Source: Pseudomonadota bacterium
GTDB lineage: Bacteria; Desulfobacterota; Binatia; Binatales; Binataceae
Length of the DNA stretch: 64,000 nt
Direction: 5' to 3'
Assembly: GCA_021324755.1 (NCBI GenBank)
Contig: JAJPIL010000027.1
Span: 1 to 64,000 of the forward strand
Position numbers and translations under genes: made by a program. Below the pieces are notes generated by a model, which saw only the letters and a program-made list of their open reading frames with translations, did not search any database and was not told where the DNA came from. Shown here piece after piece: positions 57,408 through 63,145 of the stretch; the stretch's first letter is position 1, and every line of letters begins with the position of its first letter.

Positions 57408-58289
57408 CTACGGAAAGATAGCTTTGACGACCTCGTCTATGGCCGCCTTGGCTTCGGGTTCGTCCGTAAGGGACCAGGTGACGGCGACTGTGGCGGCGCG
57501 GCGCGGCGCGATGCCGTTTCTTATGAGCTCGCCGGCATAAATAAGCAGTCTCGTCGAAACGCCTTCCTCCAAGCCTGCGCCCTTAAGATTACGAACTTTT
57601 GCACCGAGCAGCGCTAGTTGCTCGGCGATCTCATAACTAACCTTTGCTTCGTGCGCGATAATCTCAGCTTCCTTCTCCGGCGGCGGATAGTTGAACTCGA
57701 TCGTGATGAAGCGCTGGCGTGTGGAGTGTTTGAGGTTTTTCTGAATACTCTGGTAGCCGGGGTTATAGGAGATGACGAGAAGAAAAGACGGATGGGCTTG
57801 CAGGAGTTCGGCCCGCTTTTCAATCGGCAGAAGCCGCCGATGGTCGGATAGCGGATGGATCAGCACCGTGGTATCCTTGCGCGCCTCGACGATTTCGTCC
57901 AGATAACACAGCGCGCCGTTTCGGACCGCCTGCGTCAAAGGTCCGTCGATCCACACCGTTTCGTCAGCCTGGATCAAGTAGCGTCCGACTAGGTCGCTTC
58001 CGGTCAGGTCTTCGTGGCAGGCGACAGTTATTAGCCCTGTGGGACCGTCTTCGGCAACGGCTAGGCGATGTGCCATGTGTTCCACGAACCGTGTCTTTCC
58101 GCATCCAGTCGGTCCTTTCAGTAGGACCGGCAGACGTGCGCGATAGGCAGCCTCGAAGATTTCTATTTCGTCCGCGATCGGCAAGTAGTAGGGCGTGCGC
58201 GTTGGGTCCAAGCGCTTTATTTCGGACGTATACGCTTTAACCCTGGCGCTGGTAATGCTTGGAGCGCTTCTATCCATCGGCTCGTCCAT
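57408..58289 (-). CDS. CbbQ/NirQ/NorQ family AAA+ ATPase
   Basis: About 293 residues. Walker A GPTGCGKT, 'ACHEDLTGSDLVGRYL' loop, Walker B 'ALCYLDEIVEA', and the CbbQ C-terminal domain ('KVSYEIAEQLALLGAKVRNLKG' onward, 'VSTRLLIYAGELI'). Such ATPases remodel client enzymes (Rubisco, NO or nitrite reductase) together with a VWA protein (CbbO/NorD). No such partner, Rubisco or NO reductase gene is nearby, so the client is unknown. ATG 58289 preferred; the frame opens at TTG 58310. Confidence 0.88.
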   Translation of the reverse strand: MDEPMDRSAPSITSARVKAYTSEIKRLDPTRTPYYLPIADEIEIFEAAYRARLPVLLKGPTGCGKTRFVEHMAHRLAVAEDGPTGLITVACHEDLTGSDLVGRYLIQADETVWIDGPLTQAVRNGALCYLDEIVEARKDTTVLIHPLSDHRRLLPIEKRAELLQAHPSFLLVISYNPGYQSIQKNLKHSTRQRFITIEFNYPPPEKEAEIIAHEAKVSYEIAEQLALLGAKVRNLKGAGLEEGVSTRLLIYAGELIRNGIAPRRAATVAVTWSLTDEPEAKAAIDEVVKAIFP

Positions 58290-58336
58290 GGCTCGTAACC
58301 GGCTCAACAAATTCTATGGGAGAGTTGTCTAGCACT

Positions 58337-59761
58337 TCAACTTGCGCCCCATCGACGCTTGATGCGGTAACCCTCAGGCGTGTCTTCCACCGCGTAACCC
58401 ATACTTAGCAGTTTTGCTCTAAGCGCGTCGCTGAGCGCGTAATTTTTCGCACGCCTGGCTTCAAGGCGCTGCTCGGCAAGCTGCGTGACTTCTTCGGGCA
58501 GCGGCGCGCGCGACTCGGCGCGTATCTGCTCCAAACCGATTCCGAAAACGCTGTCAAAACGCGTCAGGGTTCGCCAAATGCGCCGGTCGTTTCGGCGGTA
58601 AGCCTCCGCTACCATCTCGAGCGCCACTGCCAAAGCCTGGGGCGTGTTAAGGTCGTTGTTTATCGCCTCGTGAAAGCGCTGCTCGAACGGCTCCACCCAT
58701 TCGGCATCACTCTCGGTCTCTTCGTCCGAGACGGTCGAGGCAAAATTGTAGAGGTAGACCAAATTGCGCTCGGCTCCTCTGATGGCATCGAGACTGAACG
58801 CAAGTTCAGAGCGGTACTTCGCTCCCAAACAGAACAGACGAAATGCCAAAGGATGGAGCCCTAGCGCCTGAAGGTCGCTCAGCACGGGAAACTGGCCGGC
58901 GCTTTTGCTGATCTTTGCTCCCTCGGCTCCGACTAGGAAAGCGTGATGCACAAAATAGCGTACAAACGGCTTTCCTGTAGCGCTTTCGGATTGAGCGATT
59001 TCGTTCTCGTGGTGAATTGGTATGTGGTCGATGCCCCCGGAGTGTATATCGATCGTCTCGCCCAAGTACTTCATAGCCATCGCCGAGCACTCGATATGCC
59101 ACCCAGGGTACCCGCGCCCCCACGGACTGTCCCATTGCATAATATGGTTTGGCTGATTGAGCACCCAGAGTGCAAAGTCGTGGGGGCTTTTCTTGTCCGG
59201 CGCGTGCTCGATCCTTTGTCCCGCGTACTGTTCGTCTAAGCTTTGACGCGACAAGCGACCTACACGATTGGTGCCCCGGTACTTTTCGACGTCGAAGTAG
59301 ACGCCGCTTTGGGCAACGTAGGCGTATCCGCGCGCCAAGATCTTCTCGATCAGAGCGATCATGTCTGCGATGTGGTCGGTTGCGCGGCACAAAACGTCGG
59401 GCATCTGAACGTTCAGCTTCCTTAAATCTTCGAGAAACAAATTGGTATAAAAATCGGCCACCTCGCGTGGACTTCGCCCCTCGGCGCGCGCGGTTTTTTC
59501 GACCTTGTCCTCGCCGCCATCGGCGTCGGACGTCATGTGCCCTACGTCGGTGATGTTCATCACGTGACGGACCTTGTAACCGTTATAGGTCAGCGCCCGC
59601 TTGAGCGTATCCGCGAAGATGTAGCTTCGCATATTACCTAGATGCTGGCGCAAATAAACGGTCGGCCCACACGAATAGTACGTTACGACAGGCGGGTTGA
59701 GAGGGCTGAACTCTTCAACCGCTCGGGACAGGGTGTTGTATATGAAAAAAGGAGTCTTCAG
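58337..59761 (-). CDS. cysS: Cysteinyl-tRNA synthetase
   Basis: Charges tRNA-Cys. The readable frame continues upstream of the first TTG (59653) with perfect family sequence: 'FFIYNTLSRAVEEFSPL' and 'YYSCGPTVY' before the HLGN signature. Zinc ligands are that Cys, the Cys in 'WHIECSAM' and the His/Glu of 'HHENE'; KMSKS is KISKS. An in-frame stop lies 15 bases before a CTG codon at 59761, and no ATG, GTG or TTG lies between, so CTG (AGGA 10 bases upstream) is the best start, giving 474 residues, near the family norm. Confidence 0.9.
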   Translation of the reverse strand: MKTPFFIYNTLSRAVEEFSPLNPPVVTYYSCGPTVYLRQHLGNMRSYIFADTLKRALTYNGYKVRHVMNITDVGHMTSDADGGEDKVEKTARAEGRSPREVADFYTNLFLEDLRKLNVQMPDVLCRATDHIADMIALIEKILARGYAYVAQSGVYFDVEKYRGTNRVGRLSRQSLDEQYAGQRIEHAPDKKSPHDFALWVLNQPNHIMQWDSPWGRGYPGWHIECSAMAMKYLGETIDIHSGGIDHIPIHHENEIAQSESATGKPFVRYFVHHAFLVGAEGAKISKSAGQFPVLSDLQALGLHPLAFRLFCLGAKYRSELAFSLDAIRGAERNLVYLYNFASTVSDEETESDAEWVEPFEQRFHEAINNDLNTPQALAVALEMVAEAYRRNDRRIWRTLTRFDSVFGIGLEQIRAESRAPLPEEVTQLAEQRLEARRAKNYALSDALRAKLLSMGYAVEDTPEGYRIKRRWGAS

Positions 59762-60052
59762 ACCGATTCTTTCCTAGGCGGAAATTGTGGTTTCCGGATG
59801 AGTTGCGGCTTGCCCAAACGCGGGCTCAACTGCCGCTGCCGGCAAAACCGGCAATTTAAGCCTTTGTACCAAGCTTCTAACTACTTCAGAACGAAGCCTC
59901 GCCATAGCTTGAGTCGCTACTCACCTCTCTATTTTATCCGGCACAACGGTAAAATCGAAGTAAGGCGAGATGCAAGATTGGCGGCCTGTATTTGGACAGG
60001 AGTTTACTTCGCCATTTGAAAGCTAGCGCAAGCGCCGCTTGGTCAGGCAACG

Positions 60053-61984
60053 ATGGAGGCCAAAGTTAGACATTCAATCATCGGCACGGCCGGGCATATC
60101 GACCACGGCAAGACCGCACTGGTCAAAGCACTAACGGGGCAGGATACCGACCGGCTGAAAGAAGAGAAAGAGCGAGGTATATCTATCGAGCTCGGCTTTG
60201 CCTACTTGACTCTGCCTACCGGCGAACGGGTAGGGCTGGTGGACGTCCCGGGCCATGAGCGATTTATCCGCAATATGCTCGCAGGCGCCCATGGGATAGA
60301 TCTTGCGCTGATTGTGGTGGCCGCCGACGATGGCGTGATGCCGCAAAGCGAGGAGCATCTCGACATTCTGCATCTTCTCGGCGTCGAGCGCGGCATATTC
60401 GTTATCACCAAGGCCGACTTGGTCGACCAAAAGCGAGTTGCGGAAGTCAGGGAAGAAATCGAGTTGCTAGCCGAGGGTACCCGGTTTCAGGGGGCGCCGG
60501 TCGTTGTGGTCTCGAGCCTTACGGGTTACGGTGTCGAGGAACTCAAGGCCGAAATCGTGCGCCAGCTCGAGGGCCTCGAGCGCAGGCGTGGTGCGGAGCT
60601 TTTTCGTCTGCCCGTGGACCGGGCTTTTGTAATCAAGGGACATGGCACGGTCGTGACGGGCACCGCGTTAGGAGGTGAGGTGCGTGTAGGACAAAAGCTT
60701 AAAGTTTTGCCTGCCGACGAAGCGGTGCGCGTGCGGTCGATCCAAGTGCATTCGGCTTCGGTGGAGGTAGCGGGTTTCGGTCAGCGAGTTGCGTTAAACC
60801 TGGTGGGAGCTGAGCGGGTCGGAATAAAACGCGGGGACGTCGTCGCCGACGAGCGGCTGGAAATAACCTCCTCACGGTTAGACGCTCTCTTCGAAGTGCG
60901 CTCGATGACCAAGCGGCCGCTCAAAACCAATGACCGTATTCGACTCTTTATCGGCACCGCCGAGTCGCTCGGCCGCGCAATCGTACTAGAGGAAGGCGGC
61001 GAGATTCAACCTAAGCGCTCGGGCCTGGTGCAGCTGGTGCTTCGCGACCCGGTCGTGGCGCTCAGGGGCGACAGGTTTATCGTAAGAGATGCTTCGAACC
61101 AACGCACATTGGGCGGCGGCGTGGTCGTCAACCCAGTTGCCCATCGCCCGGGAAGCCGGTTGCAGCGCTATCGGGAGCTGTTGGCCGCTTTGAACGGAAG
61201 CGCAGGAGAGGCGGCTGTGGCGGCGATGCTCGAGTTGCAAGACACGCTCCTGCTCGATGCTCAGCGTATCTCCCAGTTGCTCAACGTCCCTCTGACGGAG
61301 GTCGAGGCGGCACTCAAGACGCCGACTTTCACGAAAGTTAGCGCGGGTGACGAAACTGGCTTCATGCCCGTGAGCAGATGGAACGAGTTTAAGCGCTTCG
61401 TGCTCGAGGCCGTCCAAGCGCATCACAAGGCTGACCCGCTGGCTGTCGGTCTTGAGATGGAGGCGCTCAGGTCGCGCATGCCGGGCGAAATTTCGCCGCG
61501 CTTGTTCCGAGCGTTGGTCGAAAGACTGGTTGATGAAACGGAGCTCGAGCGCGAGGAAAGCGTTTTGCGTCTGCGCTCGCATCGAATCGAACTGTCGTCG
61601 GAGGATAAAGCGCTGGTGGCTCAAATCGAACGTATCCTTGACCAAGCTGGATTTCAGCCGCCCGATGTGCGTCAGCTGGGAGCGACGACGGGTCTAGCTG
61701 CGCAAGCAGAGGCACGGTTGATACGCCTCCTCAATATTTTGGAGCGAGAGGGAAAGGCAGTAAAAGTTACCAAGGACCTCTATTTCTCTGCGGCACGGGT
61801 CGCGCAGGCGCAAGCGGTTTTGGCCGACTATCTTAAAGCACACAGCGAAATAAGCGCCGCGACTTTTCGCGATTTGCTTCAAACCTCGCGCAAGTTTGCA
61901 ATAGCCCTCTTGGACTATTTCGACCGAAGCGGCGTGACTTTGCGCGTCGGTGACTTGAGGAGACTTAGACAAGCTGTCTCGTAA
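60053..61984 (+). CDS. selB: Selenocysteine-specific elongation factor SelB
   Basis: Delivers Sec-tRNA to UGA codons by binding a SECIS hairpin. 643 residues: G1 GHIDHGKT (15-22), switch '[13 protein letters not shown]', G3 DVPGHERF, G4 TKADLVD, then EF-Tu-like domains 2 and 3 ('[19 protein letters not shown]'), and C-terminal winged-helix domains ending '[27 protein letters not shown]', which bind mRNA. ATG 60053. The 290-base gap to cysS has a small hairpin (59837-59853) but no tRNA-Sec. selD follows after 96 bases. Confidence 0.95.
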
Positions 61985-62080: not shown

Positions 62081-63145
62081 ATGGCGGAAAGCGATCGGAT
62101 TCGCAATGAGCTGATAAGGCTTACTGCCCGATGCAAGGCGGCGGGTTGAGCCGGAAAATTGGGTCCGGCGGACCTTAAATCAGCCTTATCGAAGCTCGAC
62201 TTGGACCATGATCCGAATTTGTTGGTCGGCGCCGCAACTGCCGACGACGCCGGAGTGTATCTGTTGCGCGATGACCTGGCGCTGGTGAGCACGGTCGACT
62301 TTTTTACGCCGATCGTGGACGACCCTTTCATGTTCGGACAGATCGCAGCGGCTAATGCGTTGTCGGACGTTTATGCGATGGGTGGTACGCCAAAAGTCGC
62401 CCTTAACATCGTATGTTGGCCGCAGTCGGGGTTGCCGCTCGAAATGCTCGTCGAGATCATGCGCGGCGGTCTGGAAAAGGCACGTGAAGCCGGCGTAGCA
62501 GTTGTCGGAGGCCATTCAGTGGCCGACGAAGAGGTCAAATTTGGGATGGCGGTCACGGGAATTATCGATCCGCGCCGGATCGTGCAAAACTCCGGTGCCC
62601 GGCCTGGGGACCGCTTGGTGCTGACCAAGCCCCTGGGCACGGGAATTTTGATGACCGCTTTTAAACGAGGGCAGCTGCCTCAAGACCAGTACAGTGCTGC
62701 GGTGACAACGATGGCGACGCTTAACGCCGCCTCGTCCAGGGCGATGCTCGAGCATAACGCCCACGCGGCTACGGATATAACAGGCTTTGGACTTTTGGGA
62801 CACGCCTGCCAAATGGCGGAGGCAAGCGGCGTCTGCCTGGTGATAGAGGAATGGTATCTGCCACTGCTTGCGGGCGCGGTGGAATGGTGCAGAGCTGGGA
62901 TGCTGCCCGGCGGGGGGCGGCGTAACCGCGAGTTCTTCGGCCCAAAAGTGGCAATAGGCGAAGAAGTGGGGGAGGAGATGATAGAAATCGGCTTTGACCC
63001 TCAGACTTCCGGCGGACTGCTAATCGCGCTTGCCGAAAATGACGCTCAGGCGCTCGTGGAGGAACTGCACAGGCAAGGCAATACCGATGCCGTGATCGTG
63101 GGTCGAGTCGAAGAGGCCGGCCAGTTCCCAGTAAGATATATCTAG
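62081..63145 (+). CDS. selD: Selenophosphate synthase, selenoprotein with in-frame UGA
   Basis: Makes selenophosphate from selenide and ATP, the selenium donor for Sec. The uninterrupted frame starts only after a TGA at 62147-62149, but the same frame upstream back to ATG 62081 encodes 'IRLTARCKAAG', TGA, 'AGKLGPADL'. This is the SelD active-site segment, where families have Cys or Sec three residues before the catalytic Lys: here U23 and K26. Downstream 'VSTVDFFTPIVDDP', 'AAANALSDVYAMGG', 'GGHSVADEEVKFG' and 'QTSGGLLIAL' are SelD motifs. 354 residues. Confidence 0.93.
62150..62169 (+). promoter_or_regulatory. Candidate bacterial SECIS hairpin of selD
   Basis: Starting with the base after the UGA, GCCGGA pairs perfectly with TCCGGC (62150-62155 and 62164-62169) around the loop AAATTGGG. 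A G-containing apical loop is what SelB recognises in known bacterial elements. The stem is closer to the UGA than in E. coli fdhF, so the fit is approximate. Confidence 0.6.

Follow-up and report, generated by a model that had tools for sequence, protein, structure and literature searches.

The 64,000-nucleotide stretch of DNA analyzed here (the window; contig JAJPIL010000027.1, positions 1 to 64,000, assembly GCA_021324755.1) carries selD, which encodes selenide, water dikinase, next to selB, which encodes the selenocysteine (Sec)-specific elongation factor. The features of the locus, including two hairpins that compete for the role of Sec insertion sequence (SECIS), are collected in Table 1. 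A 354-residue frame opens at ATG 62081 and closes at a TAG (63143-63145); its sole internal stop is a TGA at codon 23, three codons 5' of Lys26. Read with this TGA as Sec, the product scores 387.3 bits against TIGR00476 (cut-off 125), contains the PF00586 (AIRS) and PF02769 (AIRS_C) domains, and matches E. coli SelD (3u0o) with 254 bits. In the alignment, U23 falls on C17, K26 on K20, D56 on D51, N92 on N87, D96 on D91, and D232 on D227; the catalytic Cys/Sec, Lys, and Asp/Asn columns are all occupied as in the E. coli enzyme. These E. coli residues (C17, K20, D51, N87, D91, and D227) have a metal or ATP role. For the L. major enzyme, ATP-binding Asp residues have been reported under that protein's own numbering (PMC7595633).

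A preliminary description of this DNA had proposed a SelD frame from ATG 62081 to 63145 whose single interruption is a TGA in the catalytic position, and both the frame and the alignment agree. It had also expected automated calling to begin at TTG 62159 and to drop the active site; the open reading frame (ORF) called with table 11 does exactly this, starting at codon 27. Public annotation behaves in the same way. A protein search with the SelD of one related genome, G026, listed 120 relatives, of which 18 carry a residue at the active-site column and 102 start downstream of it, mostly at column 35, 36, 41, or 47 and in three cases at column 27, the equivalent of the TTG. These starts were judged from the proteins, and contig ends may have cut some of them; public gene predictions do truncate such Sec-SelD genes.

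The machinery required to decode UGA as Sec is encoded in the genome from which the window comes (G000; 95.5% complete, 29 contigs). SelB scores 401 bits against TIGR00475 (cut-off 242) and carries the winged-helix domains PF09106 and PF09107, bearing out the earlier argument that the gene adjacent to selD supports decoding. A selA gene lies on contig C19 (601 bits) and a tRNA-Sec gene on contig C24 (66.5 bits), with the anticodon TCA according to ARAGORN. The absence of selA and selC had been named as grounds for doubt; both are found, and selA, selB, and tRNA-Sec, the set by which bacterial selenoproteins are recognized, occur together in this one genome.

The UGA is conserved. We compared 96 genomes, 41 of which belong to the same family (f1; Binatota, Binatia, Binatales, Binataceae, including Binatus soli). 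In 39 of the 41 there is a single TGA within the SelD match, and the codon was then read directly. Among 26 SelD loci read from elsewhere in the class, a set without the long SelD-like frames, the partial matches (G053, G088, G090), and the weak matches, 20 have TGA and six have Cys codons. An in-frame UGA thus occupies the Cys/Sec column of homologues. Relatives with neither Cys nor Sec there had been put forward as evidence that would count against Sec; the column holds TGA or Cys, bar one genome with TGG (G026) that is without Sec genes.

Table 1. Coordinates of the features discussed in the text
Feature	Position	Strand	Remarks
selD (selenide, water dikinase)	62081..63145	+	TIGR00476, AIRS/AIRS_C; match to E. 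coli SelD 3u0o
In-frame TGA, codon 23, predicted Sec	62147..62149	+	aligned to E. coli SelD Cys17
TTG taken as start by mechanical ORF calling	62159..62161	+	residues 1-26 lost
Conserved hairpin, predicted bacterial SECIS	62162..62174	+	intact in 39/39 family Sec genes
Hairpin GCCGGA/UCCGGC	62150..62169	+	present, not conserved whole; mutually exclusive with the SECIS hairpin
selB (Sec-specific elongation factor)	60053..61984	+	TIGR00475; PF09106, PF09107; upstream of selD, same strand
FdnG-type formate dehydrogenase alpha subunit	L149 6425-9496 = G000 C24:20424-23495		in-frame TGA at Sec site
Post-loss SelD clade members			L078/L150 (G026), L076/L151 (G032), P0003-P0005, P0007, P0009, P0012, P0023, P0051

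Two overlapping hairpins after the UGA

In the published model of the bacterial SECIS (bSECIS), a stem of 4-16 base pairs (bp) closes a loop of 3-9 nucleotides (nt) with a G in its first two positions, the loop lies 16-37 nt from the UGA, and the energy is at most -7.5 kcal/mol (PMC13188914). The preliminary description had noted a 6-bp hairpin at 62150-62169, just after the UGA, and had proposed folding this region against bSECIS models. That hairpin is present in the sequence: 62150-62155 pairs with 62164-62169 around an 8-nt loop, and it is the most stable fold of the region (z -2.63 alone), although within 50 nt of context it does not outperform shuffled sequence (z 0.25). Its loop, however, starts just 6 nt past the UGA, short of the published range, and it is not conserved whole. 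An overlapping hairpin fits the model in both spacing and loop. Here GGUCC (62162-62166) pairs with GGACC (62170-62174) around the loop GGC (62167-62169), which starts with G and begins 17 nt after the UGA; an outer G-U pair (62161/62175) extends the stem from 5 to 6 bp.

Conservation favors this second hairpin. GGUCC-GGC-GGACC is intact in all 39 family Sec genes, whereas shuffling synonymous codons within each gene leaves it intact in a mean of 2.9 and a maximum of eight (1000 rounds). The silent sites beneath it are frozen. Codon 28 is GGT in 39/39 (among the other Gly codons of these genes, 184/1471 are GGT), codon 29 is CCG in 39/39 (elsewhere 379/638), and codon 31 is GAC in 39/39 (elsewhere 588/880). 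Codon 30 is GCG in all 34 genes with Ala at this position (elsewhere 955/1906), and the other five genes have GAG, which preserves the stem. Residues 28-34 form the top window of codon conservation in selD (mean z 7.78). Beyond the family, the same 17-nt hairpin is intact in 11 of the 20 Sec genes from the rest of the class (shuffle mean 1.2, maximum 5).

Several observations weigh against this assignment. The hairpin is weaker than its competitor, at -7.9 versus -11.3 kcal/mol; the former value is for the fold of 62157-62180, and the bare 6-bp stem-loop reaches -7.4, compared to the model's -7.5. Counting perfect stems alone, only 23 of 62 Sec genes reach -7.5 kcal/mol, and the window selD, at -7.4, is not among them. 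A second window of codon conservation, residues 248-254, is nearly as strong (z 7.42), and the gene-wide mean column z is 2.1 because related genes share codons by descent. Taken gene by gene, the best model-conforming hairpin reaches p<=0.05 in only 8/39 family genes; the same single-gene test gives 10/20 for the other Sec genes of the class and 0/8 for genes without TGA. Because these single-gene statistics are weak, the case for the SECIS rests on the comparison across genes.

Could the hairpin at 62150-62169 nonetheless be the SECIS, or a lower or competing stem of it? Besides its stability, five outer pairs are kept in 33-38 of 38 distinct family sequences, codon 24 in its 5' arm is GCC in 36/39, and its pairs exceed codon shuffles (194/234 versus 177, with 0/1000 as high). 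But the full stem occurs in only 7/39 relatives, near chance (shuffle mean 3.6, with 61/1000 as high), and the pair that closes the loop varies. In other families of the class, the full stem is found in 0/20 genes and the pairs show no excess (69/120 versus 71 in shuffles). Its 3' arm lies within the conserved hairpin, which may account for much of its conservation. With the loop too close to the UGA as well, we consider it unlikely that this hairpin is the SECIS or a part of it, and the conservation pattern suggests that the function should probably be reassigned to the overlapping, mutually exclusive hairpin at 62162-62174.

The predicted SECIS lies at other positions in some families. Seven genes from elsewhere in the class (f2 and f12; L088-L094) have lost the 17-nt hairpin and instead have a GUGCAA/UUGCAC stem with a GUN loop 33 nt after the UGA. 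In this stem 41 of 42 pairs are kept, compared to 31.0 expected (0/1000 shuffles as high), and in two sister genes from f12 an inner pair has changed on both sides, CAA/TTG to CAG/CTG, both changes being silent. These seven genes form one clade (support 99/95). In L103 and L104 (f13 and f8), the best hairpin lies 27 nt past the UGA. A SelD gene with Cys at the site (L105, in G085) retains a stem at this 27-nt place, probably left over from a Sec codon since lost; relic SECIS elements after Sec-to-Cys changes have been published for other genes (PMC1794560). Within one class, then, the predicted SECIS of the same gene sits 17, 27, or 33 nt from the UGA, while the loop remains G-first.

Loss of UGA decoding and the SelD that remains

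Only two of the 41 family genomes lack TGA at the site: G032, which has TGC (96% complete), and G026, which has TGG (97% complete). Neither contains selA, which was found in 38 of the 41. The third genome in which selA was missed, G010, an assembly of 430 contigs, carries both the TGA and a selB beside selD. Neither G026 nor G032 has a selB match above the cut-off; the same is true of G040 (85% complete, 530 contigs), yet there TGA, selA, and tRNA-Sec are present. The tRNA-Sec gene is also absent from both: 16 of the 17 genomes searched gave a match above the cut-off, that of G026 being a tRNA-Ser. In G014, selB lies between a gene for a SnoaL-like protein and selD; these flanks can be aligned in G026 and G032, with no selB between them. 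A clean deletion of the tRNA-Sec gene was also considered, but in G034, where the gene is present, it is on a different contig from the one bearing the flank shared with G014. As G026 and G032 are without selA, selB, and tRNA-Sec, a sense codon stands at the site exactly where Sec cannot be made, and by their gene content these two genomes are a natural knock-out of UGA decoding. A 482-residue ORF in G026, which had raised the prospect of SelD fused to the upstream gene, is an out-of-frame overlap with the gene for the SnoaL-like protein, and SelD has its own ATG.

Because TGA is kept in 39/41, the machinery is present, and TGA is lost only together with the machinery, the UGA is very likely read as Sec. 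A true stop, leaving either a pseudogene or a protein that starts at TTG 62159 and lacks the active-site residue, would agree with mechanical ORF calling, which yields precisely that ORF. But SelD is matched on both sides of a TGA kept in 39 of the 41 family genomes, codons 28-31 are frozen at silent sites, and selA, selB, and tRNA-Sec are all there, making this explanation very improbable. That the UGA is read by a near-cognate Trp-tRNA or under an altered code is scarcely credible: one relative without Sec genes, G026, does have a Trp codon at the site, but it is the only one among the loci read (L052, L078; the others have TGA or Cys), N92, D96, and D232 are replaced there too, and the window genome has a tRNA-Sec with the TCA anticodon.

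Together, the conserved TGA, the machinery, and the knock-out genomes support the earlier claim that SelD is itself a selenoprotein, and from them we infer Sec insertion at residue 23. We are almost certain of this prediction for selD, with the UGA read through SelB, SelA, and tRNA-Sec, the hairpin at 62162-62174 as the likely SECIS, and the whole forming a self-dependent loop. In such a mechanism, the adjacent gene would supply the SelB that, with the SelA and tRNA-Sec of the same genome, decodes the UGA. A ribosome arriving at the UGA would open the 5' arm of the 62150-62169 hairpin and free the SECIS hairpin, and SelB would bind the latter while the UGA occupies the ribosomal A site. By homology, the product would convert selenide and ATP to selenophosphate, with Sec23 and Lys26 in a flexible active-site loop. 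Selenophosphate would then pass through SelA to Sec-tRNA, which would allow completion of the SelD chain itself; since selenophosphate is needed through SelA for Sec-tRNA, SelD likely depends on its own product.

What becomes of SelD after the loss of the Sec genes can be followed in the 18 relatives of the G026 protein that carry a residue at the site. Eight of them form one clade (support 95/92) within the UGA-bearing Binatus genes, in a tree built with 12 of the 102 short relatives and nine of the ten others; two of the eight are the G026 and G032 proteins. The residue at the Sec site is Trp in three, Arg in three, and Cys in two. The clade also has replacements at the positions of E. coli N87, D91, and D227, with D91 kept in 2/8. 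All 102 short relatives among the matches listed keep N92, D96, and D232. In the seven clade proteins other than P0051, the only formerly invariant columns changed in at least four are 23, 92, 96, and 232. The other ten of the 18 have C at the site and intact catalytic residues; because U is written as C here, the residue may be Sec or Cys. Sec genes were not found in the two clade genomes that could be searched, G026 (Trp) and G032 (Cys). A second protein search with a profile of the eight placed the same eight within its top eleven; the 16 proteins that its list added are 308 or 314 residues long.

Is this SelD simply decaying? Comparison of selD between G026 and G032 gives 31 silent differences and 35 that change an amino acid; there is no stop, and a single insertion stays in frame. 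The ratio of amino-acid-changing to silent substitution rates (dN/dS) is 0.37, compared to 0.07-0.19 for five genes with UGA from the genus. Of 400 neutral simulations, 180 reproduced the silent change; their amino-acid-changing differences averaged 88 and never fell below 46, more than the 35 observed. Selection on SelD in this pair is relaxed but not absent. Other observations favor random decay of the post-loss SelD: formerly invariant and variable columns are hit alike (0.83 and 0.91 changes per column; P 0.14 and 0.52), the C-terminal part of one of the eight proteins, P0051, is frame-shifted, and the absence of stops carries little weight, since 48 of those 180 simulations are stop-free too.

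A tentative reading, which we hold to be possible but doubtful, is that of a bacterial counterpart to the metazoan protein SPS1: the Binatus clade would have deleted the Sec machinery and kept a non-catalytic selD for an additional task that does not involve selenium. A codon for Trp, Arg, or Cys would have taken the place of the Sec codon, and the catalytic Asn and Asp would have been dropped. The second function itself is a conjecture. A gene for an ABC transporter ATPase lies upstream of selB and selD in G014, and genes of the same or similar size lie in the aligned flank of G026. This neighbor, a candidate also named in a paper on orphan SelD proteins (PMC5029168), is only a lead.

Other selenoproteins, SelD-like genes, and neighboring genes

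SelD is not the sole predicted selenoprotein of G000: contig C24 encodes a formate dehydrogenase of the FdnG type whose Sec site carries a TGA. The hairpin of this gene, GGCCA-GUU-UGGCC, has a G-first loop 19 nt past the TGA, and in a relative the hairpin is GGCAA-GUC-UUGCC, with one pair altered on both sides. Formate dehydrogenase was matched at E<=1e-100 in eight of the 41 family genomes, all eight with TGA; the remaining 33 gave no match at this threshold. The enzyme would likely draw on the same selenium supply as SelD.

Selenouridine or selenium-cofactor use as the reason SelD is retained was considered and set aside. The selenouridine synthase gene mnmH gave no match above the cut-off in 38 genomes, nor in a set of seven (with G014 common to the two); weak matches confined to at most its first 40 positions were seen in 11/38 and 4/7. 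YqeB, a marker of the selenium cofactor, had no match in five genomes, including G000, G026, and G032.

G075 has two SelD genes (L101 and L102): the codon at the site is TGC (Cys) in one and TGA in the other, and the latter also differs in its active-site motif. SelD-like matches of 33-39% identity and without an internal stop lie in long frames of 713-796 residues in G045, G046, G050, G051, G056, G057, G059, G063, G064, G070, G094, and G095. These are possibly an oxidoreductase/SelD-related fusion; the match of P0001 to the family of that name, TIGR04369, is far under the cut-off.

Upstream of selB, on the minus strand, cysS (cysteine--tRNA ligase; 58337-59770) lacks an ATG, GTG, or TTG start ahead of the conserved CGPTVY motif. 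After an in-frame TAG the sequence reads GAA AGA ATC GGT CTG AAG, and a start at TTG 59653 would cut conserved residues; a start at CTG (59761) or ATC (59767), or a sequencing error, is likely. A gene for a CbbQ/NorQ-type AAA ATPase (57408-58310, minus strand; PF07728, PF08406) adjoins cysS.

SelD of the Binatus family among known systems

SelD is often itself a selenoprotein; in a survey of 223 reference prokaryotes, Sec was present in 19% of the SelD genes detected (PMC4561486). Sec-SelD is already well known, and the window gene is a further member, from the Binatus family. It resembles bacterial Sec-SelD of the SPS2 type in having a predicted Sec at the single catalytic site, a predicted SECIS in frame, and SelA, SelB, and tRNA-Sec in the genome; it differs from E. 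coli SelD in having Gly for the second Cys of the CxC motif. A limited search of the open literature returned no title on varied SECIS places in SelD or on a SelD clade with Trp or Arg, and these may be the parts of our findings that are new.

The post-loss clade alone resembles two other systems. Like metazoan SPS1, it mostly has another residue in place of Sec (Trp or Arg in 6/8) and is kept in a genome without Sec machinery, as reported for insect SPS1 (PMC4561486); unlike SPS1, it is bacterial, arose inside Binatus, and has lost the residues aligned to N87, D91, and D227. It also resembles bacterial orphan SelD in being a SelD without known selenium traits. Orphan SelD has been described in at least 26 organisms, with pseudogenes and selenium-unrelated roles left open by the authors, and the term Trp is absent from the main text of that paper (PMC5029168).

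By these results the window gene probably encodes another self-dependent selenium enzyme, and it is a clear case of ORF calling that removes an active site. The likely SECIS was located from synonymous sites that are frozen, although the folding energy favored another hairpin, an approach that is useful for finding selenoproteins. If the post-loss SelD does have a second job, the ancestral Sec-SelD, including that of the window, would already have been a two-function protein. The clade shows the fate of SelD once its UGA can no longer be read, and it allows the question of a second function, raised also for animal SPS1, to be tested in bacteria.
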